A stretch of 64,000 nt of DNA from Nymphaea colorata (Eukaryota > Streptophyta > Magnoliopsida > Nymphaeales > Nymphaeaceae): assembly GCF_008831285.2 (NCBI RefSeq), contig NC_045139.1, forward strand, positions 18,272,354 through 18,336,353, read 5' to 3'. Of this stretch, positions 1,245-41,783 are shown one piece after another. The translations under genes and the position numbers were made by a program. Numbering within the stretch: the stretch's first letter is position 1; each line of letters starts with the position of its first letter. The notes under the pieces were generated by a model. That model did no database searches, was not told where the DNA came from, and saw only the letters and a list, made by a program, of their open reading frames with translations.

Positions 1245-1618
1245 TCTCCCTACCCCATTTTTTTTAAGTGTATGTACACAATCGATCTCACTATTCTATC
1301 CATATGCAATTTTGATCTTCACCAACAAATCTTTTCTCGATCGTTTGCTATCAAGAGAAGTTCGAGAGAAAAGAAGGCAATCGGGACAAGAGACTTTGTC
1401 CAATTAACTAGTCTTTTCTGTGTCGTCATAATCATCTTAATCGGTCAATACATGGACGGTTAACCAGTCTTTTCAGTGTTCAATGCAATGTCATTAAATC
1501 CGCGACTCTTGGCCACCGGCATTAAATCGGAGTCGTTGTTCTGAAAACGATGGAAAGGTTGAATGGGTCTTCGTTCGGCTGATGCCGGGGAGCTAGCGGA
1601 GTTGTAGTGCAGAGTGCC
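1245..1618 (+). promoter_or_regulatory. Leader/promoter region P2 of copy A
   Basis: Second copy of the shared leader, directly in front of the copy A start codon. It parallels 9,230-9,360 (copy B) and 15,110-15,208 (copy C): the 'ttcggctgatg' and 'ggggagctagcggagttgtagtg' blocks precede the ATG in each. No TATA box is asserted. Confidence 0.4.
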
Positions 1619-2130
1619 ATGGCCGGGACTATAACCCATTTCAGCCACAGGGGGCACGCTCTCACGGCCATGGCTCCCAGTGTTTCGGTGCCATGCTCTG
1701 TCAACAAGACGGGCAAATGCAGGGATTTTATGCTTGCCAGACATGCCAGTATTACCTGGGCTTCGTCTGCGCTAAGCTCGAGAAGAGAAGACTCACATCC
1801 AGGCTCATGAACAGCATCCTCTCACTCTCGTAACAACTCCAGCCACAGGAAACGTCCCCATAATTTGCAGGGCCTGTGGGGGCTGGATTCTAGGCTGGAG
1901 ATATAGCTGCAGCTGCCGCTGCAACTATTACCTGCACGCTGCCTGCGCCCATTGGCCGAAGACGATAGAAACGGCCGGAGATCACGAGCACCCGCTTAAC
2001 CTGCACTTTTCGGCCGGTCCTCAGCCCCGCTCCGACGAAGGAATCAACTACACGCGGTGTGGTCATGGAGACAAAGGGCTGTGGGGTTACGACTGCAGTA
2101 CCTGCGGCAGTGGGTTCTTCCAGCACTTAG
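1619..2130 (+). pseudogene. DC1-type zinc-finger gene, exon 1, copy A (frameshifted)
   Basis: Homologous to the open exon 1 of copy C (15,209-15,731). The first 25 or so codons match (MAG.., then HFSH-x-x-HAL). A 7-base deletion relative to copy C near 1,718 and small net insertions near 1,780 then break the frame. After the breaks the remaining sequence still encodes recognisable modules (RACGG.., SYxLHAACAHWPKTI, HPLNLHF, CSTCGSGFF). The exon ends at ...CACTTAG with a good donor (gtaaca) in phase 1. DC1 (C1-like, PF03107) modules are Cys/His zinc-binding units of plants. I infer this copy no longer makes the full protein. Confidence 0.65.
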
Positions 2131-2748
2131 GTAACAGCAGTTCTACCGGCCACAGAATCTGAAAATCTGTTCTCAAATCTTTCAATTTGTATATACCATA
2201 GTGTTCAAAATTTTGGGTGCCACCGTACTTTGATGTAGAGATTATATAATTTCCTTCCTACAAGTTGATTCTTGATTACTTTAATCATAACTACAAATAT
2301 CACCTTTCAGATTCAGATGATAAGGCTTTGTGCGGGTCTAAAATGACTTTTTTTAACAAGAAAAAGGTGGAAAGTTTTAGCAAATTTTGACACAATGAAT
2401 CTTTCAGTGAAAAAAAGGTGGTCAAAACCTTAAAAATAAAATGTGAAAATAAGAAACTGGTAACTAAAAACTGTAAAAAAACACAAAAATGAAAAAAATG
2501 AAAAAAAGAAGAGTTAAATTGAAGGCATTATTAATACACCTACACAACCGACTGATTGTGCTACTCATCAATGAAACAAACAAATAAAAAGAGAGAATGA
2601 GCGCTACGGTGCTAAGTGAAATCGCATCATTAATGATTATTTTCGTGCTATCTTGACTTATTTAAGTTGATACTCAATATACAACAATAATTTAGATTTT
2701 AATTATTAATTTATCGGTATTAACACTTCTTTTTTTATCATTTTTCAG

Positions 2749-2789
2749 ATTGCGCAGCCGCTATAGCGTTTGTTGCTTCCGAAGACCCT
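2749..2789 (+). CDS. Copy A exon 2 (41 bases)
   Basis: A tiny exon bounded by tttttcag and gtaagt. With the single G left from exon 1 it reads D-C-A-A-A-I-A-F-V-A-S-E-D-P. The phase (1 in, 0 out) matches copy B exon 2 at 10,481, which differs by one residue (N for D). The Cys at its second codon would complete the third DC1 module begun in exon 1. Conservation of frame and splice sites between two copies with diverged introns supports it as a real exon of the ancestral gene. Confidence 0.6.
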
Positions 2790-2826
2790 GTAAGTCCTCT
2801 TCTACGTTCCTATTTTCCTTAGATTG

Positions 2827-2830
<4 letters not shown>

Positions 2831-2899
<69 letters not shown>

Positions 2900-2919
2900 A
2901 GAGAGAAAGAGAGAGAGAA
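2831..2919. repeat. (TA)n followed by (GA)n microsatellite
   Basis: About 67 bp of TA repeat (2,831-2,897) then a GA-rich run, inside intron 2 of copy A. Copy B intron 2 has only a short TA stretch at the equivalent place (10,565-10,576). The rest of the intron (to 3,957) has a TA tract near 3,328-3,345 and a segment at 3,513-3,670 shared with copy B intron 2 (10,580-10,800). Confidence 0.9.
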
Positions 2920-3957
2920 TGCACACTTCTATACCACCATATCTATCATATTTGATCAAAAATTGACACTAAACAATAAAAAAAATGATGGTTGACTCTC
3001 TTTCTTTTAAACCACTGGGAAGCCCTACCAGGCAGTCCCATTTTAGATTTTTTTTTTTAAGTGCTGTACATTTTAGTTTTTTATATTTTCATAATTCTCA
3101 TTTTATTTTTCAAAAGTAGTTTTTTTTTCACTTTAATGAAAATATTTTAGTCATTACATACACCTATGCACGCACAAGGAAGAGTTCCATCAACCCAACC
3201 CCCTCCGCGCCCACCTATTGAAGATGATGGGTAGACTTCCCTTGCAAAGAACGGAGGGAAGGCAAAATGTTACCTCCCTCATCATACGTTTTTTTATATT
3301 AAAAAAAGGATCAAATGGTGTCAAATATATATATATATATATAAATTTTTGTATATATAAATTTTTGTTTGGTAGGATACTCATTCAATACCTTTAATGT
3401 AAGTACAACAATCAAATATATCAAAACATTAACATACATATTAAACAAACTTTGTGAGGCTGGTGTGGGCAGATGCCCACACCAACCACCAACCACCATG
3501 TGGCTGATATAAGGTAAGATTAATTAAAAGCAGCTGTAGATGTTTAAAAAGTTACGGAGACCACTATGAATATAAATATTCAATGTTGTTGCAAGCACCG
3601 GTAATACCTTTTATAGCAAGGGTTTACAACCAGGCAATGAAAATGAGGAGACATGTATGGCTGATGTAGACCATGGTTCGCAAATTAGTGAGTCGGACTT
3701 AGATTGGCTGATGACCAGGTCATTAGGTCAATCAGTTAATATGATTCGTTCGATCGAGTTTTAAAATAACCTGAGTTCGGGAGCAAACGAAGCGAAACCT
3801 TGACTTGTGAGTCTATGACTAGGTTTTCTAGCGATCCAAATAGATTCAGGTAATTAATTCTCAAGTCCAGTCGGCCAGTCAGCTTTGATTTCAACTAAAA
3901 GTAACACGTTTGTCTCCGCTCTCACCTGCTTAAGTCGTGCATCTTCTGGTGGCGCAG

Positions 3958-4245
3958 CTTGATGTAGGTGAAACGGTGGATACGATGGTGGATGTTGCGA
4001 ACGGCATAGGCAACAATGATGGAGGTGGCGCTGCCATTGACGGGCCGGGTTCCTTGTGGGAACTGGTTGAGCTCCTAGTACCCAACCGCTTCTCTGCACC
4101 TATTTCTCTCGTAACACAATTGGTTCCCCCTGATCCAGCGCAAACAGTGTCTGCAACAGCCCCCAATGCTGCACCAGCGAATAACCAAACAAGCCATCAT
4201 GACGACGACTGCTGCTGTGATGATGTCGACGATTCTTGCTGCTAA
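3958..4245 (+). CDS. Copy A exon 3: Asp/Cys-rich tail
   Basis: Exon opening after an ag acceptor (ggcgcag) with L-D-V-G-E-T-V-D-T and ending at TAA 4,243-4,245. It encodes a Gly/Asp loop, a conserved 'SLWELVELLVP' helix-like segment, a Pro-rich 'QLVPPDP' segment and a tail HHDDDCCCDDVDDSCC. Exon 3 also occurs at 6,484, 11,055 and 16,138. The high Asp and Cys content suggests metal binding, which is inference. The tail here is shorter than in copy B. The reading frame is phase-compatible with exon 2. Because exon 1 of this copy is frameshifted, a full protein is unlikely. Confidence 0.55.
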   Translation, partial: LDVGETVDTMVDVANGIGNNDGGGAAIDGPGSLWELVELLVPNRFSAPISLVTQLVPPDPAQTVSATAPNAAPANNQTSHHDDDCCCDDVDDSCC

Positions 4246-4305
4246 GTTCTTGAATGTATTTGTTCGTAGCATAAGTTAGAACATTAGTTCTATTCTACCT
4301 CAGCA

Positions 4306-4311
4306 AATAAA
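4306..4311 (+). terminator. Poly(A) signal AATAAA, copy A
   Basis: AATAAA 61 bases after the copy A stop, inside a 3'UTR block ('tttgttcgtagcataagtt') that is conserved in all four exon 3 copies. Confidence 0.55.
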
Positions 4312-4544
4312 GTCTTTTCTGTTTGAATGTTGGAGAATCAGTTTGTGCATTGATATGTAAAGTAGCGAAGCAATATTAATGGAGTAGGAGCATCAGAGCT
4401 GTGTTGAAGATCAGAGAAATAAATCATGTTGATGGTTTGAGACTTAGAGCTCCATTTAGTTCTTCTTCCACTACCTGTTTGACTGTGACTGTTGTTATAG
4501 TTGTTTCCCCCAAGCTTGTTCCCAACTTGTAAATCTCTTTCTTT

Positions 4545-5007
4545 TTTCTTGTGCACCCAAGTCAATCTCACTTTGATGTTTACCAACAAACCTTTTCTCT
4601 ATCGTTTCCGATCAAGCGAAGATCAAGAGCAAAGGGCACTAGGGACAAGAGAGTTTGTCTAATTTAACTAGCCTTATCAGTGATGTCAAAATATTTTGAA
4701 TCGGTCAATGCATGAATAATAAATTCGAGTCCATCATCCTTTGTCGGATATCTAGCTAAAAATACTTTTGGCTACGGTTTTGTGATCTTTAGCGACTGTT
4801 GAGAATTTCATCGCATCGGCTACTATTGGCCCACCGGTATTAAATCGTCGTTGCTGTTCTGAAGAGGATGAAGCCGTTGATTGGGTCTCCATTGGCTGAT
4901 GATCTTAGAACCTCCGCCGACTGCACGGGAGCTAGAAGTGGCGTAGAGCAAGGTGCCATGGTCGGGACGAATACGATAACCTATTTCAGCCACTGGGAGC
5001 ACGCTCT
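4545..5007 (+). repeat. Leader duplicate P3 with 5' scrap of exon 1
   Basis: Third copy of the leader (compare 660-1,110 and 1,245-1,618). It runs into an ATG at 4,958 and 17 codons of exon 1 (MVGT.., FSHWEHAL). At 5,007 the homology to exon 1 stops abruptly and continues with sequence like 1,211-1,250, so the rest of exon 1 was deleted. This is the 5' part of the broken copy A'. Confidence 0.6.
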
Positions 5008-5079
5008 GTGTATAACTAACTCCATTTCTTTTTTTTCTCCGCCCTAAGTATTCAACTCCATCTATTTCAACTTTATCGT

Positions 5080-5330
5080 GTTCTTAAATTGAAGCTGAAC
5101 GCAATAGAAGGTTAACTTTAAGCACCTTTGTAAAAATCTGACTAGAGAATATAAGGTAAAAATCTGAGTGCAAATTCGAGCTCGGCTCGTTTGCATGCAC
5201 ACAAAAAAGGGAAAGCAGTTCATGTTTGGATTCCAAGGAAGGCCATGGAAATGATGTGTTGAGTTTCAGTTTATAAGTTGATCTATGATTCAATAACCAA
5301 GTTTACTTTGAGCACCCACAACTTAGAAAT
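5080..5330. repeat. Repeat shared with 12,950-13,215
   Basis: Near-identical in long stretches to 12,950-13,215 in the same orientation (for example the 'gggaaagcagttcatgtttg' phrase). Both lie downstream of leader or exon 3 copies, so they mark duplicated flanks. A reverse-strand ORF of 62-69 codons occurs in both, but it has no recognisable domain and I do not call it a gene. Confidence 0.7.
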
Positions 5331-5867
5331 GCCTACAACAATAATACACGCACGATAATAATCTATGATTCAAAAAACTAAACTACAGTAATATACCATA
5401 CGCACAACATAGAAATGCAAAAGTCTGCCTTCATGCATTTCAGCAATCACTGGGTGAACATCTTGGCAAGTCCATGGAACCGGCGGGGAGGAAAAGAGAG
5501 AGAGACAGAGATTCCGGATAGCTCTCAAGTCTCACCGGTGGATGCTGATGCACAGAGGAAGAAAGCTTCAGTTGCAGTTGCCTGTTGGTGAGGAGGAGGA
5601 ACTCAAACATTCTGTTGGCTTGTTGCCTTGAATGCCGCCCAAAAACAATAGGGTGTGGAAAAACCAATAGATTTTGAAAGCCGCTGCTTTGAAAGCTGCT
5701 GGTCTGCTGTTGCTGCCTGCACAGGCACAGCCTGTGGGAGGAGGGTCGGTGACCAGCCGACAGGAGGGGTCGATTGAGAGAAGAGAGTTAGAGAGAGAAA
5801 CAGAAAAAAAAGAGAGAAATTAGTCCAAATTGAAATGCATATGAAGACAATAAAAGCAGAATGAGAA
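5331..5867. other. Intergenic, no gene seen
   Basis: Unique-looking sequence with a (GA) run near 5,492-5,507 and a GA-rich stretch at 5,775-5,818. Reverse-strand ORFs here lack any domain. Confidence 0.5.
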
Positions 5868-5996
5868 AAGTGAGGATCGAATTCCCTCGTTTACAAACTC
5901 GAGTTTCAATTGAAACTTGACCTTGGAGCCCAGCTCGAGTCAGTATTTTTGAACGAATTCGAGCCGAGCATGGCTCGTTGTACATTCCTACTTATT
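5868..5996. repeat. Dispersed 'ctcgagctcg'-type repeat
   Basis: Palindrome-rich sequence (ctcgag, gagctcg, cgagccgagc) resembling 13,280-13,380 and, more loosely, 36,895-37,400. Such tracts are common in plant non-autonomous DNA transposons; that assignment is inference. Confidence 0.45.
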
Positions 5997-5999
5997 CTT

Positions 6000-6200
6000 C
6001 TCCGGTCTCCACAACTTAGCCTGATTTAATTTCTCCCTCATTAACTGTCCACGTAAACACGTGAGATGTTCAATATGATGGGGAAGGTAAGATCTAATGC
6101 TTGGAAATTTAATTCGTTTACCATTTACCTATGAATCCCCATGTCGACCCAATAATTTAGACGCGGCCTGTTCAGATAGCTATGACCTCAGCTTGACTTT
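6000..6200. repeat. Repeat block, copies at 7,095-7,320 and 13,380-13,600
   Basis: Contains 'cctgatttaatttctccctc' followed by 'cacgtaaacacgt' and 'gacgcggcctgtt'. Three copies occur in the array, each near an exon 3 copy or its flank. It is a boundary marker of the segmental duplications. Confidence 0.65.
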
Positions 6201-6483
6201 GTCCAATCTGACTCCCTTGGAAAAAAAAAAAAAGGATTGAGGGAATTTAAGATTTTTTTATAAAAAAATGTATATTTTAGACTTTTATTATTTTCGTAAT
6301 CTTCTTTTTAACTTTTTCAAAATCTTTTTTTTATAAAAAAAGAAACTGTAGTAGGGGTACTTTCTTTATTGCATGCCCATATTGTGCACACAATTTCCCT
6401 TTAGGTGGTTAAGTTGACAGAGTGATAGTTCCTTTTTTTCCTCTCTCTCTCTTTCTATATATATATTACTTTCGTGTTTTCTC

Positions 6484-6715
6484 TGAACTGGTGGAGCTGC
6501 TGCTACCCCATCGCTTCTCTGAACCTATTTCTTTCGTAACACAGTTGGTTCCCCCTGATCCTCTCCAAACAATGTCTGCAAATGCTGCACCTCCGAACAA
6601 CCAAACAAGCCCTGATGACGACGACTGCTGCTGTGATGATGACGACGACGACTGCGACTGTGATGATGATGACGGCGATTGTTGCTGCTGCATTCTTCAA
6701 TGTATTTGTTCGTAG
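6484..6715 (+). pseudogene. Copy A' exon 3, truncated at 5' end
   Basis: Homology to exon 3 begins at ELVELL.. (about 6,486). The upstream part, the acceptor and exons 1-2 are missing. The tail is open to TAG 6,713-6,715 and encodes PDDDDCCCDDDDDDCDC and then four further acidic residues and a Cys run, followed by ILQCICS. The Cys run arises where other copies stop, so the 3' end has extended by loss of a stop. It is probably not expressed as a protein. The 3'UTR block follows. Confidence 0.6.
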
Positions 6716-6746
6716 CATAAGTTGGAACGTTAATTCTGCCTCAAGA

Positions 6747-6752
6747 AATAAA
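6747..6752 (+). terminator. Poly(A) signal AATAAA, copy A'
   Basis: Same conserved 3'UTR context as in copies A, B and C. Confidence 0.45.
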
Positions 6753-7094
6753 GTCTTTTCTATTTGAATGTTGAAGCATCAGTTTGTGCATTGATATGTA
6801 AAGTAGGGGAGCAATATTGATGGAGTAGGAGCATCAGAGCTGTGTTGAAGATCAGAGAAATAGAAGTGAAGGGGCGAAGCATATTGGTGGTTAGAGTGAC
6901 TTAAGAGCTCCATTTAGTTCTTGCTCCGCTACCTGTTTGACAGTGACCGTGACTGTAACTGAAAATCTATGTTGCATTCTAAGTTAGAAAATTGATTCAT
7001 GACGCAAACGGGGCCCCCATTGAGGGTTGGGCCTCTCCCTGTTATGTCAAAAACATATAAGTAGATTGATCCGTACTTAGAAATAGACTCACAT

Positions 7095-7320
7095 AAAGTA
7101 TCAAAACTTAGCCTGATTTAATTTCTCCCTCATTAATGGCCTTCGATTATCCACTCAAACACGTCTAAATGTTCAATACGATGGGAAAGGTGAGATTTGA
7201 TGCTTGGAGATTTAATTCTTTGACAACTTAGCTATAAATCCCAACGTGGACGCAATAATTTAGACGCGGCCTGTTGAAATAGGTATGATCTCAGCTAGGC
7301 TTTCTCTCCAATGTTCCGTG
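7095..7320. repeat. Repeat block, second copy of 6,000-6,200
   Basis: Shares 'cctgatttaatttctccctc' and 'gacgcggcctgttgaaatag' with 6,000-6,200 and 13,380-13,600. The segment that follows (7,320-7,560) continues to match 13,580-13,830. Confidence 0.65.
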
Positions 7321-7768
7321 GCCCCAAGATATGAACCTTCCACATGATGAAGTGGAGGCTTTCTCCACTCAAACACGACTCGTCATTGAATTGGACATGA
7401 CAATTTGTTCAATTAATTGAAATTTAATGATGAGGAAAAGGTTGTACATAATTCCCAGGGAAGAAATTAGAATTCACGTTACATCGGAGGTGTCTCAAGG
7501 GTGGGTTAGGAGACTAATTAATTTTGAGGACTGTGTCTTAGGGAGCTCCCTGCCTTCTTCCCCTTTTTCTTTTCTTTCTTACTACATCACAACAACTAGC
7601 GTTAGGTGGTGCGTTTCATGTATGCATTGGTTTGTGCATGCAACAAATATACATTAGATAAAAAAAGGGGGGTTGAGGAATTTAAGAATTCTTTATGACG
7701 AAATGTATATTTTATACTTTTGTTATTTTAATAATCTCCTTTTCAACCTTCTCAAAATCTCTTTTTTA

Positions 7769-7970
7769 AATATCAAATACCTTTTTTAAAGTTTTAAATT
7801 GAATAATTTTAAAAATGCTTATTCTCTGTGAATTCAAGTCGAGTCGTGTTAAAATAGTCTCTGTGAATTTTCTATTTCAAATACCTTTTTAAAAGTTTCA
7901 AATTGAATGATTTTAAAATACTTATTCCCTGTGAATTCAAGTCGAGTCGTGTTAAAATATTCTCTGTAAA
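7769..7970. repeat. Tandem duplication of about 100 bp
   Basis: Two adjacent copies (7,769-7,867 and 7,873-7,970) share 'tgtgaattcaagtcgagtcg' and flanks. A single copy is present at about 14,216-14,312, so the duplication happened in this unit only. Confidence 0.7.
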
Positions 7971-8059
7971 TTTTTAATTCCTTTTTATTTCCAGTACAAC
8001 CGTCGCCTATAGACCGGTCGAGCTTAGATTGACCACGAAAATTAGTCCTCCGGTGGTGC

Positions 8060-8810
8060 ATGTCACTCCCTGGTCGTGCATGTTACTCCCTTCTGACCCG
8101 TAAAACCCCTCAAAAGTTATCATTTTTTTTTAAAATATAACATTTACATGCAATTAGGGTCCCGTGAGAATTTTTTTTTTTTTGTCCAGGCCAAATTATT
8201 AGTACGGTCTAAATAAATTTTTCAAAATATTTTATATATTAAACTAATTTTTTTAAAATTTATAAGCAAAATTTTGATTTTCTAAAATCTGATACTTACA
8301 ACTAATTAGTTCACATAGTTCTTATACCACATGCACGTATGTCTGAGTAATTATCCACACGGTCCAATAAAAATCATTTATTAGATGTTGGTGAACATTA
8401 AGTTTTTATATAATTACATATAAAATGCCTCTCAAATATATATCATATCCCTTTAACTCTCAAATATATATCATATCCCTTTAACTAAATACGTCTGGCT
8501 CTGCCATTATATGTCGGCTAAATATCAAAAAGAAAACATTTAATTTGATCATGAACATATTGAATATTGTGATCAATCCATTTTTGCACCTATTCTTTTC
8601 CATGAAACTAACTGTGTATAAAGACTGGTTAAGAATATGCTCAAAAAGTTGTGAATAAAAAAGAGGGAGATTTTTAAAAGTATAAAAAAGATACTATAAA
8701 AATATTTAAAATTTTAAAATATACTTTATAATAAATTATAAAGTACCCTGCCCCTGTCACGGGCTCACGGCGTGTGTGTGTGTGTATGAAGGGCAATTCT
8801 CTCGATGGAC
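8060..8810. repeat. Upstream repeat unit of copy B
   Basis: Matches 60-600 and 14,330-15,110. The part at 8,640-8,810 matches both arms of the inverted duplication at 14,760-15,110. A tandem duplication of a 31-base phrase ('ctcaaatatatatcatatcc' plus 11 bases) lies at about 8,431-8,488. The stretch 8,810-9,230 shows no gene. Confidence 0.55.
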
Positions 8811-9360
8811 GCATATGCGGTGTCCACAATCGCGTAGAGTCACACGGGGAAGAGCAAATGAAAGCTCATCGTCGAGTAGGGCAATGGTCAGTCGCTTTAA
8901 TGACATAGTGTCGACAACTGACTTTGGATGGAGACTTTTTCTTAAAAAGAAATCTACCCCCTCTTAGATTCCGAATGGAAGTAGATAAACGCTTAGAGAA
9001 ATGATAGTGTTTGGAAAGGCTTCATGGTCACAGCTTGTCGAGGGTTTATTGGGGGACAATCCTAGATGGTGTACTGAGTGCCTAGAACTTTTTGTCTAAT
9101 CACAGTTTCAAAAACATTGATATATTAAAATTGAGTTAAAACTGACCAAAGGATTGAACCATTGAAAAACCATTGATGTGGTCAAATAAAACTTGACAAA
9201 GTCAGCCGTAACTGTTTTTCTTTCCTTAAAGTGTATGTTGGTTGCACACACTACACAAGTAGATGGAGCCGTTGAATTGGTCTTCGTTCGGCTGATGATC
9301 TTCTGTATAAGAAGCTTCGCCGACAGCCGGGGAGCTGGCGGAGTTGTAGTGCAGAGTGCC

Positions 9361-9857
9361 ATGGCCGGGATGATAACCCATTTCAGCCACAGGGAGCACG
9401 CTCTCACGGCCATGGCTCCCGATCTTCGGTGCAATGCTCTGTCTGCAAGAGGAGCAAATGCGTTGCCAAGGGATTTTATGGTTGCAAGACATGCCAGTAT
9501 TACCTGGGCTTCGTCTGCGCTATGCTCGAAGAGAAGACTCACATCAGGGCTCATGAACAGCACCCCCTCACTCTTGTAACAACTCCAGCCACAGGGAACG
9601 TCCCCAGAATTTGTAGGGCCTGTGGGGGCCAGATTCTACGCAGGAGAAGTAGCTGCAGCTGCAGCTATGACCTGCACGCTGCGTGCGCCCATTGGCCGAA
9701 GACGATAGGGACGAGCACCCGCTTAACCTGCACGTTCCCGCCGGTCCTCAGCCTCGCCCCGGCAAAGGAATCAACTGCAGGCGGTGTGGTCATGGCGATA
9801 AAGGGCTGTGGCGTTACGGCTGCAGCACCTGCGGTAGTGGGTTCTTCCACCACTTAG
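9361..9857 (+). pseudogene. DC1-type zinc-finger gene, exon 1, copy B (two frameshifts)
   Basis: Starts at ATG 9,361 with the same MAG..THFSHREHALTAMAPD opening as copy C. A 1-base deletion near 9,423 moves the frame. The second frame encodes QCSVCKRSKC..AMLEEKTHI and continues to AHWPKTI. A 13-base deletion near 9,707 then shifts it again into HPLNLHV..INCRRCGHGDKGL..CSTCGSGFFHHLG. The donor at 9,858 (gtaaac) is intact in phase 1. Exons 2 and 3 of this copy are intact, so the lesion is limited to exon 1. An internal start could give a shortened protein but I see no in-frame ATG before the first CxxC. Confidence 0.7.
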
Positions 9858-10480
9858 GTAAACAGCAGTTTCTACCAGTCCATCAGAATCTGAAAACATG
9901 TTCAATCTTTCAATTTGTATATACCATAGTGCTCAAAATTATGGGTGCCATCGTACTTTAATGTAGAGATTATATTATTCCCTTCCTACAAGTTGATTCT
10001 TGATTACTTTAACCATAACTACAAATATCATCTCCCAGATTCAAATGATAAGGCTTTGTGCGGGTATAAAATGACGAAGCTTTTTTTACAAGAAAAAAAT
10101 GGAAAAATGTTAACAAATTTTAGCAGAATAATCTTTCAGTGCAAAAATGTGAAACGTGAAAATAAGAAACTGACAACTAAAAACTGTAAAAAACACAAAA
10201 ATGGGAAAAAATAAAAAAAAGAAAGAAAAATTAAATTGAAGGCATTATTAATACACCTATTCACCCGACTGATTGTGCTACCCATCATTGGAAGAAAGAA
10301 ATAAAGAGAGAGAATGAGTGCTACGGACTACGGTGCTAAGTGAAGTTGCTTCGTTAATGATTATTTTCGTGCAATCTTGACTTACCTAAATTTGATTCTC
10401 AATATACAACAACAAATAATTAGATTTTAATTACTAATTTATCGGTATTAACACACTTTCTCTTTTTCTTCATTTTTCAG

Positions 10481-10521
10481 ATTGCGCCGCAGCTATTGCA
10501 TTTGTTGCTTCTGAAAACCCT
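10481..10521 (+). CDS. Copy B exon 2 (41 bases)
   Basis: Bounded by catttttcag and gtaagt. With the phase-1 G of exon 1 it reads D-C-A-A-A-I-A-F-V-A-S-E-N-P. It is the best-preserved exon 2 in the window. Its Cys aligns with the last Cys of the DC1 consensus (CxxC..HxxC), so the intron splits module 3 just before its final ligand. Confidence 0.6.
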
Positions 10522-10674
10522 GTAAGTTCTCTTCTATGTTCCTCTCTTCCTCAATTTACTTATACATATATATATAAAAGGTAAGATTAATTAAAAGCAG
10601 TTGAATGCTAAATGTTGCTGGATGTTTAGAAAATTTAAGAAGATCATGGAGACCACCATGAATATAAATATTCA

Positions 10675-10795
10675 ATGTTGTTGCAAGTATCGCTAATTCA
10701 TTTTATAGTCTAGGGCTTAATAGCTAAAGAACATGGGGAGATGTTGTTGCAAGTATCGCTAATTCCTTTTATAATCAAGGGCTTAATAGCTTATG
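10675..10795. repeat. Tandem duplication in intron 2 of copy B
   Basis: The phrase 'atgttgttgcaagtatcgct' and about 40 following bases occur twice, at 10,675 and 10,742. Copy A intron 2 has only one such block (about 3,583). Confidence 0.7.
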
Positions 10796-11054
10796 AAAAT
10801 GGGCTGACATGTATGTAGACAAATTCGTGAGTTGGACTTGAATTGGCTGATGACCGCCAACCTTGACTTATGGCTAGGTTTTTTAGCGACCTGAGTTGAT
10901 GAGAGTAATTCTGAAGTCTAACTCGGCAAATCAGCCAACTATGATGTGAACAATTATTCACACCAAGCAACGTAAATAGTCTTTTCATTTCAACTAAAAG
11001 TTACAGGTTTGTTTGTCTGCGCTCTCACCTGCTTAAGTCGAGCATCATTTGCAG

Positions 11055-11399
11055 GCGGAGCTTGATATTGGTGAAACGGTGGATACGATACAAATTGTGG
11101 TGGACGTTTTGAACGGCATGGGCAACGATGATGGGGGTGGCGCTGCCATTGACGGGCCCGATTCCTTGTGGGAACTCTTTGAGCTCCTAGTACCCGACCG
11201 CTTCTCTCAACCTCTTTCTCTCATAGCACAATTGGTTCCCCCTGATCCTGTGCAAATAATGTCTCCAAATGCTGCACCCGCCAGTAACCAAACAAGCTCT
11301 GATGATGACGACGACTGCAACTGTGATGATGACAACGACTGCAACTGTGATGACGATGACGACGACTGCAACTGTGATGACGACGACGACTGTTGCTGA
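11055..11399 (+). CDS. Copy B exon 3: longest Asp/Cys repeat tail
   Basis: The acceptor tttgcag leads to A-E-L-D-I-G-E-T in frame with exon 2, ending at TGA 11,397-11,399 (114 residues). The order is a short beta/turn opening, VVDVLNGMGN, an acidic Gly loop, SLWELFELLVPDRF, QLVPPDP, a Ser/Asn linker, then four acidic blocks each ending in Cys: (D)5CNC, DDDNDCNC, (D)6CNC, (D)5CC. The DNA is an in-frame minisatellite of gay/gac and tgcaactgt codons, which explains the length variation between copies. About 30 bases after the stop, another partial acidic unit is seen out of use. The composition suggests binding of divalent or soft metals, which is inference. I know no described family with this tail. 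Confidence 0.6.
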   Translation, partial: AELDIGETVDTIQIVVDVLNGMGNDDGGGAAIDGPDSLWELFELLVPDRFSQPLSLIAQLVPPDPVQIMSPNAAPASNQTSSDDDDDCNCDDDNDCNCDDDDDDCNCDDDDDCC

Positions 11400-11484
11400 T
11401 TCTTGTGATGATGACGACGATTGTTGCTGATTCTTCAGTGTCTTTGTTCGTAGCATAAGTTAGAACAGTAATTCTGCCTCAACA

Positions 11485-11490
11485 AATAAA
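11485..11490 (+). terminator. Poly(A) signal AATAAA, copy B
   Basis: Inside the conserved 3'UTR block, 86 bases after the stop. Confidence 0.55.
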
Positions 11491-11879
11491 GTCTTTGCTA
11501 TTTGAATGTTGGAGCATCAGTTTGTGAATGTAAAGTAGGGGAGCAATATTAATGGAGTAGGAGTATCAGAGCTGCGTTGAACATTAGAGAAACAGAAGTG
11601 AAGGGGCGAAGCCTATTGATGGTTAGAGTGACTTAGAGCTCCATTTGGTTCTTCTTCCAGTACCTGTTTGACTGTGTCTGTGACTGTGAAAATCTATGTT
11701 GCATTCTTGGGTGTTGTGCATAAGTTAGAAATAACGTATTAATTTTTCAGGGGCAATTTTAACTTCTAATTTTGCTCCCTCAGAACAAGGCTCGTTTTCA
11801 CTATGCACCTTAACCACCCATGCAAAAAAAAAAGGGGGCGAGAAGCTTTGTAGTCGAATTTAACAGGAAGAGTCCATTA

Positions 11880-12250
11880 TTTTTCTAAACTTTTTTTTCC
11901 CTTAATGACAAAAACCTGTCATCCTTTAACTGAAAATTTTAGAAACAAATAAAATAAGGTGTATAAGTTTGAGGCCAATAAAAAAAAAACAACTTCCAGC
12001 TCAACTTTTGAAAGTTCATAAATGGGCAATCCACTTCTAAGAGAAAAATACATATTAAAAAAACAGTAAACTTTGTTATAAAGCTGTAAAAATATCCCTA
12101 ACCATTTTTCCATTGGTTGAAAAAAGATATTTTCCTCCTCAATAGAGTTATTTTTGTTATTTAATACCAAAAATTGATGTTTCCTTCTAATAGACGGATA
12201 TTTAAAAATTTTATTTCTAAAGTCGGATTGAGGTTCAAGGCTGAGCATTA
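11880..12250. repeat. 3' flank repeat, pair with 16,905-17,290
   Basis: Long matching stretches (for example 'ataaggtgtataagtttgag' and 'aattgatgtttcctt') in direct orientation, each following an exon 3 copy. They define the 3' end of the B and C duplication units. Confidence 0.75.
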
Positions 12251-12289
12251 GTTTTTTACTTGCCTAAATGTTAACTTTTTATTTCTAAT

Positions 12290-12935
12290 TTTTCTGCTTC
12301 TGTTTCTGCTTTCAGCCGGGTTTCATCCACAAACATTTATATGATACAATATAGATCTACAACTGTATACACTAATAAAATATTCAAATGTTTAAAATTT
12401 ATGTATTACGTATAATGTGGTCCGTCAAAATTGAAATGCACTTATACGTAATACAGCTCGAGGAATTGATCTTCTTCTTCTTCTTTCTTCTTTCTTCTTT
12501 CTTCTTTCTTCTTTTCTTTTAAGAGTCAAGCGGAATTCTATCAGCTTAAACATGCCTCTAGTATGAAACTTTCTCTGAAACTTTCTCTTTTTATTGCTGA
12601 TGTTACAGAAAGGGATATTTGAGCCCTTTTTTTGTTTTGGATTGGTTAAATAATCGGTTGCCGAAGTATAAAGCACGTAGAGATTGCAAGAGTCAGGTTC
12701 CCGAATGTCTGTCATGCACCAAATAAATTACTTTAGTAAATAAATGTCATCTATAATATTAGTATATGGACTAACGGACGCTTTGAGGGCGTAGCGCACC
12801 TTGCGTTGGTGGCTCAATTTAACAGTTCGGTCATCAGCTTGATTCTTGTGGGCACTATTCATCTGTATTGTAAATGGTGGTAATGCAACACTTTAGTTGA
12901 TGGTATACACGGGCCCAACCAAGTCTCCAAGTAAC
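12290..12935. repeat. 0.6-kb repeat, direct pair with 27,145-27,740
   Basis: Matches 27,145-27,740 nearly end to end ('tttcatccacaaac', 'tatgtattacgtataat', 'aagcacgtagagattgcaag', 'ggtatacacgggcccagcca' or one-base variants). This copy contains an extra (ttcttct)n tract at about 12,472-12,517. No coding sequence or terminal repeats were recognised. Confidence 0.75.
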
Positions 12936-12949
12936 TCGTTAAATTAAAG

Positions 12950-13215
12950 GTAAACGCAATGGAGCGTTAACTTTAAGCAGAGCAGCTTCGTAAAAAATCT
13001 GAGTAGAGAATATAAGATAAACTTTGGGCAAATTCGAGCTCGACTCGTTTAAGCTCGTTTGCATGCACACAAAAAAGGGAAAGCAGTTCATGTTTGGATT
13101 CCAAGGAAGGCCATGGAAATGATGTGTTGAGTTTCAGTTTATAAGTTAATCTATGATTCAATAACCAAGTTTACTTTCTCATTTGTGCACCCACAACATA
13201 GGAATGCACAACAAT
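12950..13215. repeat. Repeat shared with 5,080-5,330
   Basis: See the pair at 5,080. It lies in the spacer between copies B and C. Confidence 0.7.
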
Positions 13216-13279
13216 GAAAGTTCGTCTTCAATCTTCGAAACAGGGTTTCTTCAAGACGCGGTAAAAGTTTTCGTTTGAA

Positions 13280-13830
13280 AGGAAGACAATCGAGTCGAGT
13301 TCCCTCGTTTCCAAACTCGAGTTTCAATTGGAACTCGAGCTCGGAGCCGAGCTCGAGTCGAATATTTTCGAACGAGTCTCCAAAACTTCTGCATGATTTA
13401 ATTTCTCCCCCATCAATAGCCTTCGGTCGTCCACGCAAACACGTCTAAATGTTGGGAAGGTAAGATTTCATGTTTGGAGATTTAATCCATTGACCGTTTA
13501 CCTATAAATCCCCACGTCGACGCAAGAATTAAGACGCGGCCTGTTGAAATAGGTTTGATCTCAGCACGACTTGGTCCAATGTCAGTCTGAGTCCATGAAC
13601 CTTCCACATGATCAAGTGGAGACTTTCTCCACTCAAACACGACTCGTGATTGAATCAAACATGATAATTGGTTCAATTAATTGAAATTTAATGGCGAGCG
13701 AGGAAAAGTTTGTAAATAATTCCCAGGGAAGACAGGCTTCTGGGGGAATTAGAATTCATGTTACGTCAGATGTGTCAGAAGGGTGGGTTAGGAGATCAAT
13801 TAATTTTGAAGACTGGATCCATAGCCACAA
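13280..13830. repeat. Repeat cluster between copies B and C
   Basis: 13,280-13,380 is the 'ctcgagctcg' palindromic repeat (compare 5,868-5,996). 13,380-13,830 matches 6,000-6,200 and 7,095-7,560. The stretch 13,830-14,215 is AT-rich with no gene seen. Confidence 0.6.
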
Positions 13831-14215
13831 GAAATGGAGAGAGTTTTCTCGGGTTTAAAACCGCAAAGTCGTAATTTTTTTAATTTTAAAACTATCAATG
13901 TTTTGGTGAGAAGGAGAAAGGTCGCCACAATCTTTAAAAGAAAATATGAAAATAAAAATTTGGTAACTTAAAAAAAATGTAAAAACAAGTGAAAAAAATA
14001 GTTAAGAAAGGGGAAAGGTTAACATTTTTTTAATTTATAAGCCAAAATAGGTATGGATCATTGCTTTCTTAATCCTCCTCATGATAAAACGACACCTATA
14101 GTCTCATGATTTCGTTGAAATTTCTCATGATTGAGAACATTTGAGCTGAATGATTGCAGCTTATTTTGGAGTTATCAAACGAAAATGTGGATCTGATCAA
14201 ACTAAAACACACGAT

Positions 14216-14640
14216 TTCAAATACCTTTTTAAATGTTTTAAATTGAAAAAATGCTTATTCTCTGTGAATTCAAGCCGAGTCGTGTTAAAATATTGTCTGT
14301 GATTTTTCAATTTCTTTTTATTTCCAGTACAACCGACACCTATAGACTAGTCAAGCTTAGAATGACCCGTAAAAACCCACTCAAAATTTATCCTTTTTTT
14401 TTTTTGAAAAAATAACATTTACATGCAATTAGGGGTCGACGAGAAATTTTTGTCGTTGGTGGGGTCGAATTATAGTTTCAATATTTAAACAATATTTAAA
14501 TACAATTTTCAATTTTTCATGTATATTAAACCAAAATTTTAAAAATTTATAAGCAAAATTTTGTTTTTTTCTAAAATATGATGCTTATAACAAATTAGTT
14601 CACATAGTTCTGCCATTACATGTCAATTAAAAAAGAAAGT
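14216..14640. repeat. Upstream repeat unit of copy C
   Basis: Matches 7,769-8,350 and part of 60-200. It lies directly 5' of the inverted duplication. Confidence 0.6.
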
Positions 14641-14654
14641 ATCGAATTTCATCA

Positions 14655-15190
14655 TTTAGAGAATCCGCTAGCTCCCGAGCAGTCGGCGAAGCTTCGATCA
14701 TCAGCCCAACGAAGACCCATTCAACGGCTCCATCATTTTCAGAACAATTTGATTGATTGAGAAGAATTGTCCTTAACCCACGCACACTCCATTCACCCCG
14801 GGACAGGGACGGAGCACTTTATAATTTTATTATAAAATACATTTTTACTTTTAAATATTTTTGTTGTATTTTTTATTCTTTTAAAATTCACCCTTTTTGC
14901 TTTGTCAGGTGTATTTTGATTATTACAAATGGGTGTGCACTTAATGTGCATATGTAGTGATCAAAATGCACCTGACAAAGCAAAAAGGAAGATTTTTAAA
15001 AGAATAAAAAAGATACTATAAAAAATTTTAAAAATTAAAATATACTTTCTGGTGTTCCTGTCATGGCAGAAGTGTGTGAGTGTGTTAGGGGCAATTCTTC
15101 GGTGAACCTATATCATAGGAGCGGTTGAATGAGTCGTCTTTCGGCAGACAAGAAGCTCCGCCGACTACCCGGGAGCTAGCGGAGTTGTAG
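14655..15190. repeat. Head-to-head inverted duplication of the copy C leader
   Basis: The left arm (about 14,655-14,935) is the reverse complement of leader sequence like 8,640-8,810 and 9,255-9,345. The right arm (about 14,950-15,190) is the normal leader of copy C. Near the centre (about 14,944) the arms are close matches: 'ctttttgctttgtcaggtg' on the left against 'cacctgacaaagcaaaaag' on the right. The outer ends carry inverted 'ctagctcccgagcagtcggc' on the left against 'gccgactacccgggagctag' on the right. A transcript crossing it could fold into a long imperfect hairpin. Confidence 0.7.
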
Positions 15191-15208
15191 TGCGGACTGC
15201 AGAGTGCC

Positions 15209-15731
15209 ATGGCCGGGATCGGGATGATAACCCATTTCAGCCACAGGGAGCATGCTCTTACGGCCATGGCTCCCGATGTTTCGGTGCGATGCTCTGTCTG
15301 CAAGAGGAGCAAATGCGTTGCCAAGGGATTTTATGCTTGCAAGACATGCCAGTATTACCTGGGCTTCGTCTGCGCTATGCTCGAAGAGAAGACGCACATC
15401 CCGGCTCATGAACAGCACCCCCTCACTCTCGTAACAACTCCAGCCACAGGGAACGTCTCTAGAATTTGCAGGGCCTGTGGGGGCCAGATTCGAGGCTGGA
15501 GATATAGCTGCAGCTGCCACTGCAGCTATGACCTGCACGCTGCCTGCGCCCATTGGCCGAAGACGATAGAAACGACCGCAGTTCACGTGCACCCGCTTAA
15601 CCTGCACTTTCCCGCCGGTCCTCAGCCTCGCCACGACAGGGGAATCAACTGCAGGGGGTGTGGTCATGGCGACAAAGGGCTGTGGGGTTACAGCTGCAGC
15701 ACCTGCGGTAGTGGGTTCTTCCACCACTTAG
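15209..15731 (+). CDS. DC1-type zinc-finger gene, exon 1, copy C (open)
   Basis: Open from ATG 15,209 through 174 codons to a phase-1 donor (TTAG|gtaaac). Module 1 (residues about 9-55) has HFSHREHAL and two CxxC-like pairs, but Gly stands where the usual last His of the DC1 consensus would be (YYLGFVC). Module 2 (about 67-113) has HEQHPLTL, CRAC, CSCHCSYDLHAAC. Module 3 (about 126-175) has HVHPLNL, CRGC, CSTC and FFHHLG, and would need the Cys of exon 2. DC1 (PF03107) modules bind zinc, and in plants such proteins are linked to stress, hormone and defence responses. Exon 2 and its intron are deleted in this copy, so the natural product is uncertain; reading into the intron gives only a short extension. 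This is the best-preserved exon 1 in the window. Confidence 0.65.
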
Positions 15732-16137
15732 GTAAACAGCAGTTTCTACCAGTCCATCAATTTGTATATACCATAGTGTTCAAAATTTTGGGTGCCATCG
15801 TATTTTGATGTAGAGATTCAATAATTCCCTTCCTACAAGTTGATCCTTGGTTACTTTAGTCATAACTACAAATATCATCTTCCAGATTCAAATGATAAGG
15901 CTTTGTGCGGGTATAAAATGACAAAAAAAAAAAAGGAAAAATTTTAGCAAATTTTAACATAACTAATCTTTCAGTGAAAAATTGTGAAATGAGAAAATAA
16001 GTAACTGGTAACTAAAACCTTAAAAAACACAAAATAGGAAAAAAAAAATGAGAAAACTTAAATTGAAGGCATTATTTATACACCTATTCAACCGACTGAT
16101 TGTGCTACCGCTCATTGTTGCCTACCGCTTGATATAG

Positions 16138-16391
16138 GTGAAGCGGTGGATACGATGCAAATTGTGGTGGACGTTTTGAACGGCATAGGCAACAATGAAG
16201 GGGGTGGCGCTGCCATTGACGGGCCGGATTGCTTGTGGGAACTGGTTGAGCTCCTAGTACCCCACCGCTTCTCTGCACCTATTTCTCTCGTAACACAATT
16301 GATTCCCCCATATCCTGTGCAAATAATGTCTGCAATCGCTGCACCCATCAGTAACCAAACAAGCCCTCATCATGACGACGATTGCAACTGA
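16138..16391 (+). pseudogene. Copy C exon 3, lacking acceptor, tail cut short
   Basis: Homology to exon 3 starts at L-D-I-G-E-A-V-D-T (16,138) and is fused directly to intron 1 sequence: about 0.8 kb that includes exon 2 and intron 2 in copy B is absent, and no AG acceptor sits at the junction. The frame is open through SLWEL-type sequence (here CLWELVELLVP) to HHDDDCN, where TGA 16,389-16,391 replaces a Cys codon of copy B. The acidic/Cys repeat DNA continues for about 70 bases after this stop. Two independent lesions make it a pseudogene exon. Confidence 0.65.
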
Positions 16392-16518
16392 GATGATGAC
16401 GACGATTGCAACTGTGATGACGACGACGACTGCAACTGTGATGACGACGATGACTGCAACTACATTCTTCAGTGTCTTTGCTCGTAGCATAAGTTAGAAC
16501 ATTAATTCTGCCTCAACA

Positions 16519-16524
16519 AATAAA
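16519..16524 (+). terminator. Poly(A) signal AATAAA, copy C
   Basis: Same conserved 3'UTR context as the other copies. Confidence 0.5.
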
Positions 16525-16904
16525 GTCTTTTCTATTTGAATGTTAGAGCATCAGTTTGTGCATTGATATGTAAAGTAGTGAAGCAATATTAATGGAGTAG
16601 GAGTATCAGAAATGTGTTGATCGTTAGAGTGACTTAGAGCTCCATTTGGTTCTTCTTCCAGTACCTGTTTGACTGTGTCTGTGACTGTGAAAATCTATGT
16701 TGCATTCTTGGGTGTGGTGCATAAGTTAGAAAATTCATTCATGTTGCAAACGGCCCCCCCGTTGAGGGTTGGGCTTTCACCCCTCTCCCTGTTATGTCAA
16801 AACATATAAGTAGATTGATCCATGGTTGGAAATAGACTCACATAAAGTATTAACTTTTCAGGGGCAATTTTAACTTCTAATTTCGCTCCCCTTGAGTGTC
16901 TTAT

Positions 16905-17290
16905 TTTTCTAATTTTTTTTTTCCTTAATGACAAAAACCTCTCATCCTTTAACTGAAAATTTTAGAAACAAATAAAATAAGGTGTATAAGTTTGAGGCAA
17001 ATAAATAGAAAAAAACATCTTCCAGCTCAACTTTTGAAAGCTAATAAATGGGCATTCCACTTCTAAGAGAAAAATACATACTAAAAAAACACTAATCTTT
17101 ATTACAAAACTGTGAAAATATCCATAACTATTCTTCCATTGGTCGAAGAAAGATATTTTCCTCCTCAATAGAGTTATTTTTGTTATTTTATACCAAAAAT
17201 TGATGTTTCCTTTTAATATATGGCTATTTAGCAATTTATCTCTAAAGTTAGAATGAGGTTCAAGGCTAAGCATTTTATTTCTAAATATTT
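16905..17290. repeat. 3' flank repeat, pair with 11,880-12,250
   Basis: See the entry at 11,880. From 17,290 to 17,768 no repeat is recognised; this stretch should hold the MTP5 promoter and 5'UTR. Confidence 0.75.
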
Positions 17291-17768
17291 AGAAATATAA
17301 AATTTTTTAATTCAATTTTTATGGGTGTTATTTTTATAGACTATAGACGGTAGTATATGAATATATTATGAAAACCAGCAAGTAACTTTTGAACCCTGGC
17401 ACGGTCAAGGATATTACTGTGATTGTCGAACCCCTAACACACTGTCCCATGTTAGGGCCTCAACGTATAACTTGTGCTGGCCGAGTGTGGCCATTGACGA
17501 AATAATTAGCTAATGGGACGTTATTTTGCAATATTTTCCTGTGGGGAGGACTGTTTTCGCAAAAAATTGCGTCGGGCAACGTGGCATAAGATGGCACTGT
17601 GGTCTTTTTTTTTAGTTGCTCAACGTAGCCATGCTGCTATTTCTCCGATTTGAAAAAGGAAGCTGCGAGCCTGCTTCTCTCGTAGACGAGGATTAGGCTT
17701 GAGGGGCTGCTGCTGCTTCTTCTATTCTTTGGAACTGGGGAATTTCTCCTGGTCGCTTCCTCGAGGGG

Positions 17769-26829: not shown

Positions 26830-27144
26830 TTCCATCGGTGGTGGGGATCAACGAGATGTTCATCACCACCTCCCCAATTACTCGGCTTAGCAAACCAAAG
26901 AAAATAACAGGCGAGTGCTCTTACGCGGTGGGGCACAATGGCGACAAGCATGTCTCCGTCCGAGGTCAGTCAACAGCCACAAGCAAGTGAGAATAGGGAT
27001 CGGACAAAGGACTCCGAAAGAACCACGCAACATCCTGCCCCATACTTCAAGACTGAACCTTGTTCATGATTCCCTACTTTACAACATGGGGTTCGGTGGT
27101 ATGTGCTTTGCTTATATTGCCTTGTATTAAGTATTTCTATAATA

Positions 27145-27740
27145 CTTCTGCTTCTGCTTTCAGCTGGGTTTCATCCACAAACGTTTATATGATATAATGT
27201 AGATCTACAACTGCATACACTAATAAAATATTCAAATGTTTAAATTTTATGTATTACGTATAATATGGTCTGTGAAAATTGAAATGCACTTATACGTAAA
27301 ATTTCTATATAATAATTTGAAAAAAATGGAATTATTTGGGAATAGACTTTTATCAGCTTAAACATGCCTCATGCCTCTAGTATGAAACTTTTTTTTTTCT
27401 TTTTTTTTTCTTGTTGAAGTTACTGAAGGGAATATTTAAGCCCTTTTTTTGTTTGGGATTGGCGAGATAATCGGTTGCTCAGGTATAAAGCACGTAGAGA
27501 TTGCAAGAGTCAGGGTTCCCGAATGGCTGTCCTGCACCAAATAAATTATTTTAATAAATAAATGTCAACGATAATATTAGTATATGAACTAACAGACGCT
27601 TTGAAGGCGTAACGTACTAGTAATTGGGTTGGTGGGTCAATAACAGCTTGATTCTAGTGGGCGCTATTCATCTGTATTACAATACTTTGATTGACGGTAT
27701 ACACGGGCCCAGCCAAGTCCCCAAGTAGTTTATCTGTTCT
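27145..27740. repeat. 0.6-kb repeat, direct pair with 12,290-12,935
   Basis: See the entry at 12,290. This copy has a T-rich insertion at about 27,387-27,411. The stretch 27,741-28,600 carries no gene that I can support. Confidence 0.75.
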
Positions 27741-28708: not shown

Positions 28709-29863
28709 ATGGGGAGGACAGCGATGACGACGGTGCACCATTTCAGCCATGGCCACCCTCTGCAACTAGTCTCTTTCACCCAGGCCCAGCAGCCCAATCT
28801 CAAGACCCAGTGCTGCGGCCCCCCCTTCTCCTCCTGGACTAACCATGGCCGCTCCTCCGAGCCTCTCTACGCCTGCGAGCACTGCAACTTCTACGTCCAC
28901 AAGGGCTGCTTGCAGCTTCCCCAGCTCATCACCCATCCCTCCCACCCCGCCCACCCCCTCACCCTCCTGCCCGTCTGCCACTACCCCGACGCCACCTTCT
29001 CCTGCGACGCCTGCTCCCGATCTTCCAGCTGCTTCTCCTACAACTGTGCCCACTGCTCCTTCGACCTCCACGTCTACTGCGCCTCCATGCCCCTCGCCGT
29101 CAGCCATGGCTCCCACCCTCACCGGCTTTCCCTCTCTTTCGCCTGCCCCTACCCTGAAGACGGCGACTTCCAATGTGATCTCTGCAGAGGGAAGGGAGGA
29201 AGCGCCTGGCTCTACCGCTGCGCCCCTTGTGGCTTCGACGCCCACCTCGACTGCGCTAGACGCATCGGCCCCGTGACCGGTGTGCCCGCTCAGCCCATGG
29301 GAGCTCCGAGAGCAGTGGCACCCACCCAACCTGTCCGACCATACTCACCGGCGCCCAATTACCAGGTCGGCCCAAGACCACCCGTCCATCCCCTCCGACC
29401 ATCTGCCGGCCAGCCATATGCAGTTGCACAGGCTCCAAGACTAACCGGAACAGGTCTTCCGCCACAGTTCAGGCCGGTAGGTTTGAGACCGGTGATGCCT
29501 GGTCGGCCACAGGCAGCGCAGGCTCAACCAATGGCTTGGAACCAACCAGCCACCCAGCCGACCGTGGAGGCGTCTCTGCAACTTAACTTTGGGGATGGCG
29601 GTGACCAAAGCGGGGGACAAGGGGATGGAGGGCAGAACGGTACTTCTGGAGATCAAAGTCAAGATGGTTATTCTGATAATGGAGGAGCAAATGCAGGGAA
29701 TTGCGATTCAGGGAGTCAAGGGGTGGACTACGCCGGTGACGGAGGAGCGGAGTATTGTAGTTACGAAGCTTCGGCTGGCGAAGCCTACTTTATTAATAGC
29801 GATGAAGGACAGAATTTTGTTGGGTGTGAGGTGGAGTGTGATGATTTTGTGTGTGACGATTGA
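28709..29863 (+). CDS. DC1 domain protein with Pro-rich and acidic Gly/Asp tail (384 aa)
   Basis: Single exon. The ATG directly follows a (GA)n run at 28,691-28,708, the arrangement seen in its paralogues. There are three C1-like modules: residues about 11-67 (HFSHGHPL, CC, CEHCNFYVHKGC), 79-124 (HPLTL, CDAC, CAHCSFDLHVYC) and 136-182 (HRLSL, CDLC, CAPCGFDAHLDC). Each keeps the Cys/His ligands of PF03107. Residues 185-290 are Pro/Gln-rich. Residues 290-384 are Gly/Asp/Ser-rich and end in an acidic Cys cluster (CEVECDDFVCDD). The DNA of the N-terminal half is strongly GC-rich compared with its surroundings, which creates long spurious ORFs on both strands. DC1 proteins are plant zinc-binding proteins; some act in defence, UV-B or salt responses, but I cannot infer the role here. 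Confidence 0.88.
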   Translation: MGRTAMTTVHHFSHGHPLQLVSFTQAQQPNLKTQCCGPPFSSWTNHGRSSEPLYACEHCNFYVHKGCLQLPQLITHPSHPAHPLTLLPVCHYPDATFSCDACSRSSSCFSYNCAHCSFDLHVYCASMPLAVSHGSHPHRLSLSFACPYPEDGDFQCDLCRGKGGSAWLYRCAPCGFDAHLDCARRIGPVTGVPAQPMGAPRAVAPTQPVRPYSPAPNYQVGPRPPVHPLRPSAGQPYAVAQAPRLTGTGLPPQFRPVGLRPVMPGRPQAAQAQPMAWNQPATQPTVEASLQLNFGDGGDQSGGQGDGGQNGTSGDQSQDGYSDNGGANAGNCDSGSQGVDYAGDGGAEYCSYEASAGEAYFINSDEGQNFVGCEVECDDFVCDD

Positions 29864-41750: not shown

Positions 41751-41783
41751 TGTACCATCGCTATTGTATTTGATTTTAAAAAC

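Follow-up and report, generated by a model that had tools for sequence, protein, structure and literature searches.

The window analysed here, 64,000 nucleotides of Nymphaea colorata contig NC_045139.1 (positions 18,272,354 to 18,336,353 of the forward strand), holds within its first 17 kb several copies of a DC1 gene whose last exon runs into a tail of aspartate runs and clustered cysteines. Its plant-type DC1 genes, other genes with introns and a Copia element are what mark the sequence itself as plant DNA. DC1 proteins make up a large family in plants, for which few functions are known. A first-pass annotation of the sequence had proposed that this gene might encode a metal-binding or metal-sensing protein composed of three N-terminal zinc modules, a hydrophobic/Pro middle and an Asp/Cys tail. 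The question raised by the locus is whether any copy can still do so. In no copy in the window can modules, middle and tail be read through in a single frame, and the proposed protein was not recovered: the four copies (A, A', B and C) are all interrupted or incomplete. With a probability of roughly 0.8, the region is read as a decaying array of tandem copies of one three-exon DC1 gene, these being DC1 pseudogenes with a once-coding minisatellite.

Tandem copies of a three-exon DC1 gene

Repeated units comprising a DC1 gene and its flanks were located by self-comparison of the window. Their approximate extents were 1,311-4,492 (A), 9,257-12,296 (B) and 15,118-17,323 (C), with a gutted unit, A', made up of 4,551-5,008 and 6,485-7,104. 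Similarity between copies, as found by self-BLAST, was at the scale of the unit and covered introns and flanks. Intergenic DNA was repeated too, for example 7,102-8,333 with 13,381-14,622, which points to tandem duplication of whole segments. The features of the array are given below, with the basis of each in brackets.

708-1,126, +, remnant Z (self-BLAST: 708-1,082 against 4,551-4,919, 88.9%; 1,087-1,126 against 15,414-15,453, 95%; alignment)
1,619-2,130, +, copy A exon 1, DC1 modules (alignment, translation, borders)
2,749-2,789, +, copy A exon 2, DCAAAIAFVASEDP including the last base of exon 1 (alignment to copy B exon 2; AG/GT borders)
3,958-4,245, +, copy A exon 3, middle and short tail HHDDDCCCDDVDDSCC (alignment, translation, borders)
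4,551-5,008, +, 5' part of copy A', flank and approximately the first 17 codons of exon 1 (ATG at 4,958), then breaking off (self-BLAST, alignment)
6,485-6,715, +, copy A' exon 3, 5'-truncated, tail at 6,611-6,712 (self-BLAST, translation)
9,361-9,857, +, copy B exon 1 (alignment, translation)
10,481-10,521, +, copy B exon 2, completing the third DC1 module (alignment, Pfam C1_2 test, borders)
11,055-11,399, +, copy B exon 3, with the longest open Asp/Cys tail (11,298-11,396) (alignment, translation)
11,373-11,435, +, 31-bp duplication across the stop codon of copy B (Tandem Repeats Finder)
15,209-15,731, +, copy C exon 1, open throughout, with three DC1 modules (Pfam PF03107; fold match of predicted model)
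16,128-16,391, +, copy C exon 3 remnant, ending at TGA after DDDCN (self-BLAST, translation, exon 2 search)
16,392-16,461, +, copy C tail repeats, downstream of the stop codon (Tandem Repeats Finder, translation)

An inverted piece of the DC1 5' flank at 14,664-14,747 (- strand) was also found by self-BLAST and is a further remnant of the array.

The gene plan comprises an exon 1 with three DC1 modules, an exon 2 of 41 bp and an exon 3 with the middle and the tail. The splice points proposed for copy B, 9,857/10,481 and 10,521/11,055, hold in the DNA, where they are bordered by GT...AG. The borders of copy A match those of B except at exon 3, where the acceptor used in B is altered and an AG six bases further on preserves the frame. 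The place of exon 2 follows from alignment with other DC1 frames: exon 1 ends immediately before the final Cys of the third module, which in five other DC1 frames that retain this module ends in His, two residues and Cys (for example AHLDCA), and exon 2 contributes DCA and hence that last Cys. When the joined peptide was compared with the read-through into the intron, the Pfam C1_2 match reached profile position 48 of 48 instead of 44 and its score rose from 14.0 to 19.4 bits, the test pieces being short and both scores below the curated cut-off. Against that gathering cut-off of 26 bits, the copy A open reading frame (ORF) piece scored 46 and the first copy B piece 42; the second copy B piece, at 21.1 bits, was under it. 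Together with the alignments, these matches bear out the earlier description of a DC1 gene family with three exons.

Each copy was found to have lesions of its own. The alignment of exon 1 in A, B and C revealed two frameshifts in copy A, a deletion of 7 bp and an insertion of 2 bp, and frameshifting deletions of 1 bp and 13 bp plus one 6-bp deletion in copy B. Translated without correction, the frame of A ends after 63 amino acids and that of B after 72. Copy A' is without most of exon 1 and without exon 2. In copy C, self-comparison placed intron 1 sequence directly against exon 3, with exon 2 and intron 2 gone. A search for exon 2 in the A' gap and between the C exons gave best 41-base matches of 19-22 identities against a shuffled maximum of 19-23, and the positive controls, A and B, gave 35-41 of 41. 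The three N-terminal modules are thus uninterrupted only in copy C, exon 1 being frameshifted in A and B and reduced to some 17 codons in A'.

Copy C exon 1 lies within an ORF at 15,191-15,808 that matched PF03107 at 79.3 bits in three stretches, as in plant DC1 (CHP/CHR) proteins. By alignment, modules 2 and 3 (module 3 including exon 2) correspond to those of other DC1 ORFs, and module 1 is without a His that those ORFs have (LGFVCA against IHKxCA). A model of this exon predicted from a seven-sequence alignment had a mean pLDDT (predicted local distance difference test) of 79.0. Its best Protein Data Bank (PDB) match in Foldseek was 1v5n, with a probability of 1.00, an E value of 0.042 and 31% identity over 65 columns; 0 of 61 matches reached an E value of 0.001. 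In keeping with a DC1/C1-like fold, the closest solved match to the predicted model is thus the DC1 domain of the Arabidopsis protein disulfide isomerase-like protein At1g60420, a nucleoredoxin-type protein not known to carry such a tail. A PDB sequence search with the same exon returned 20 weak matches (E 0.01-0.08), listing aspartate aminotransferases, sequestosome ZZ domains and 1v5n (E 0.024), and was not used as evidence.

Copy C may still yield a shortened DC1 protein without the tail repeats. That it is a functional, remodelled gene, with exon 1 spliced to exon 3 or ending in intron 1, is nevertheless unlikely. Its exon 1 is open, the ratio of nonsynonymous to synonymous changes (dN/dS) between B and C in exon 1 is 0.45 (P 0.064), and in-frame acceptors exist, for example 15,731 to 16,137 (258 amino acids) and to 16,068 (281 amino acids). 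Six of the eight AGs tried, however, give a frame ending HHDDDCN, so the in-frame acceptors lend it little weight. The deletion also removes the final Cys of module 3, leaving the C1_2 match at profile position 44 of 48, and an in-frame TGA at 16,389-16,391 precedes the repeats, so that C ends prematurely in DDDCN without a CxC.

On the reading as a decaying array, a unit of gene and flanks was copied several times, to give Z, A, A', B and C, and separate lesions in each copy then put an end to its capacity for the full-length protein; both the copying and the lesions are shown by the sequence. DC1 genes form a cluster in tomato as well: a survey there counts 21 DC1 genes, ten of them clustered on chromosome 1 and two possible pseudogenes, with three C1 domains as the commonest number (PMC10707348). 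For Ipomoea, a similar report gives 19 intronless DC1 genes, 13 with one intron and few with two (PMC13033517). The array gene differs from the plant family in its two introns together with its Asp/Cys minisatellite tail.

The Asp/Cys tail

All four exon 3 copies have a conserved NQTS followed by aspartate runs with cysteine pairs or triplets, which in copy C reach only as far as DDDCN. The exon 3 frames of A' and B run into the tails PDDDDCCCDDDDDDCDCDDDDGDCCCCILQCICS and SDDDDDCNCDDDNDCNCDDDDDDCNCDDDDDCC, respectively, and that of C (16,128-16,391) runs to PHHDDDCN. Acidic runs closed by cysteine motifs, as first described for all four copies, are therefore present in frame in A, A' and B, and copy C ends without a CxC. 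The accompanying observation that tail length and cysteine pattern differ in every copy is correct for the translations of A, A', B and C.

The tail is built from GAY, TGY and AAY codons. Over the four copies it comprises 108 codons, with A' taken as far as 6,688 and C including its stop; 97 of them start with GA, TG or AA, and the third base is C or T in 107. Arrays of 24 or 27 bp were called by Tandem Repeats Finder in A', B and C and not in A, and the tails differ between copies by 24/27-bp units and by single GAY codons. As a description of the sequence, the first-pass annotation is mostly right; for the minisatellite, the arrays are there in three copies, none was called in A, and the repeats of C lie behind the TGA. 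The duplication in B, at 31 bp, is not divisible by three and suggests that copying within the tract takes no account of the reading frame. Changes in tail length presumably came about by replication slippage or unequal exchange.

It is highly improbable that a shorter gene ends before the tail and that the tail itself is low-complexity non-coding DNA left open by chance. In favour of that view, the tail can be read without a stop in one other forward frame and two reverse frames in 4/4 copies, and open exon 3 frames are not improbable under drift (see below). Pure low-complexity chance was rejected as the principal explanation, as the Asp/Cys frame continues the frame of the exon 3 middle in all four copies; moreover, the splice phase of the middle agrees in A and B with exons 1 and 2, and comparisons of A' with A and C indicate past constraint in the middle.

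On the reading as a decaying array of a once-coding gene, the ancestor probably encoded three DC1 zinc modules, a hydrophobic/Pro middle and a flexible, acidic, cysteine-bearing tail. Such a protein would have functioned as plant DC1 proteins generally do, and its tail may have chelated metal. The metal-sensing role put forward for the protein is a hypothesis suggested only by the composition of the tail. Metallothioneins carry Cys-x-Cys and Cys-Cys pairs, as does the array tail; the tail differs in being mostly Asp and attached to DC1 modules. In other plants, Cys/His-rich C1 proteins are reported as over-represented among Arabidopsis genome-wide association candidates for trichome shape and metal accumulation (PMC11963502), and DC1 genes as enriched among copy-number-reduced genes in A. 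halleri (PMC5259951). Among the titles and abstract openings covered, none described such a tail on a DC1 protein or paired a DC1 domain with an aspartate-rich sequence. No relatives of C exon 1 were found in viral, prokaryotic and plasmid collections (including tblastn against plasmids), nor of exon 3 in viral (copy B exon 3) and prokaryotic (exon 3 alignment) collections, results that have no bearing on plants.

Substitutions and gaps among the copies

Exon 1 identity among A, B and C was 90-94%, against 86-88% for intron 1, so that exons have been kept only slightly better than introns. Pairwise dN/dS was calculated with P values from neutral simulation, in 12 uncorrected comparisons of short sequences. 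For exon 1, values were 0.67 (A-B, P 0.27), 0.72 (A-C, P 0.35) and 0.45 (B-C, P 0.064), and for the exon 3 middle 0.75 (A-B, P 0.44), 0.99 (A-C, P 0.62) and 1.47 (B-C, P 0.86). None of these six comparisons gave P < 0.05, and exon 3 was not distinguishable from neutral. In the stretch shared with A', values among the other copies were 1.07 (A-B), 0.79 (A-C) and 1.53 (B-C); those involving A' were 0.28 (A'-A, P 0.024), 0.31 (A'-C, P 0.009) and 0.43 (A'-B, P 0.09). This pattern fits past constraint, with little or none after the divergence of A, B and C.

Gaps that are not multiples of three made up 4/5 (A-B), 3/4 (A-C) and 3/5 (B-C) of those in exon 1, counts that include one 1-base end gap each in A-C and B-C arising from included intron bases. 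In intron 1 the figure was 10/12 (A-B). In the stretch shared with A', each of the three A' comparisons has one such gap, at the chosen boundary.

Several observations weigh against a reading of decay. The comparisons of A' with A or C show fewer amino acid changes than neutral, so the exon was once constrained. The exon 3 frame is kept in A, A' and B, and in C up to the tail, and in the exon 3 middle 0/4, 0/4 and 0/2 gaps among A, B and C break the frame, several of these gaps being boundary end effects and only two being real events. In simulation, however, three lineages with 0.06 changes per site kept exon 3 open with a probability of 0.27 (0.51 at 0.03, falling to 0.06 at 0.12), so that the kept frame is not surprising under drift. 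Exon 1 of copy C is open, and when exon 1 of the other copies was read in C's frame, nonsense codons numbered 0/168 in A and 0/162 in B. With 0.06 changes per site, drift in three lineages would leave exon 1 free of nonsense codons with a probability of approximately 0.05, and with 0.03 the probability is 0.19; their absence from A and B suggests that decay may be recent. Assembly error may also lie behind the lesions, above all the 1-bp lesion of B.

Downstream DC1 frames and neighbouring genes

The array has a larger DC1 cluster beside it, with six more reading frames on the same (+) strand at 12-37 kb downstream. All six scored above the C1_2 cut-off, with three stretches in five and two in one, and were 30-34% identical to copy C exon 1. 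They are listed with two other features of this part of the window.

28,709-29,863, +, DC1 ORF, uninterrupted, three modules followed by a Pro-rich middle and then an acidic tail ending ECDDFVCDD (ORF, Pfam)
31,173-32,864, exostosin GT47 glycosyltransferase frame, uninterrupted (253.3 bits)
35,625-36,431, +, DC1 ORF (ORF, Pfam)
40,383-44,657, -, Copia-type retrotransposon, between two DC1 frames (gag, integrase and SH3-like domains; reverse transcriptase RVT_2)
45,354-46,610, +, DC1 ORF (ORF, Pfam)
48,689-49,441, +, DC1 ORF, two C1_2 stretches only (ORF, Pfam)
50,172-51,119, +, DC1 ORF (ORF, Pfam)
53,042-53,596, +, DC1 ORF (ORF, Pfam)

The plan of DC1 modules, Pro-rich middle and acidic, cysteine-bearing tail thus exists uninterrupted 12 kb away, in the frame at 28,709-29,863, which resembles the array gene in all three parts and in strand and is 32% identical to copy C exon 1 in its DC1 part. 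Being uninterrupted, it has no intron in the coding part, unlike the array gene. Its tail is rich in Gly, Asp and Gln with scattered Cys (14 Asp, 6 Glu, 5 Cys and no Lys or Arg in the last 90 residues), whereas that of the array is an (Asp)n-CxC repeat. Within the window, this regular repeat was observed solely in the decaying group of copies.

A living copy with a metal-binding Asp/Cys tail may lie elsewhere in the genome, for example to the left of the window, the copies described here being its dead relatives. This can be held only tentatively; it is compatible with the reading as a decaying array and not exclusive of it. The constraint signal of A' against A or C, the kept exon 3 frame and the combination of three DC1 modules with an acidic, cysteine-bearing tail at 28,709-29,863 argue for such a copy; against it, none is present within the window. 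It is improbable, in turn, that in an intact paralogue, in this genome or in relatives, the Asp/Cys tail would serve as a slippage-tuned metal buffer or sensor, a kind of rheostat whose length differs among copies and individuals. A DC1 design with an (Asp)n-CxC coding minisatellite would tie the DC1 family to metal handling in a testable manner, C1 proteins being among the Arabidopsis association candidates for metal accumulation noted above. The locus as it stands is chiefly a record of birth-and-death decay.

A neighbouring zinc transporter gene, MTP5, had been named in the first-pass annotation. No Pfam cation-efflux match was obtained on the eight ORF pieces tested, for which short exons may be the reason, and one piece gave a PDE8 match under the cut-off; MTP5 was thus neither confirmed nor excluded. 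A link to metals through this neighbour was rejected as evidence, since the gene is unconfirmed and DC1 frames also lie on its far side for tens of kb. Rfam gave 0 matches at gathering scores within the window. A dispersed repeat pair, 12,280-12,933 and 27,132-27,727 (75% identical), flanks the region labelled MTP5.

The C-terminal low-complexity parts of the downstream DC1 ORFs vary, being Pro-rich, acidic or Gln/Asn-rich. The frame at 45,354-46,610 lacks the HxSHxHALQL sequence with which module 1 opens in neighbouring frames, and its N-terminal part may be damaged or in another frame. In the frame at 48,689-49,441 the third module is absent and the Pro-containing part follows directly.

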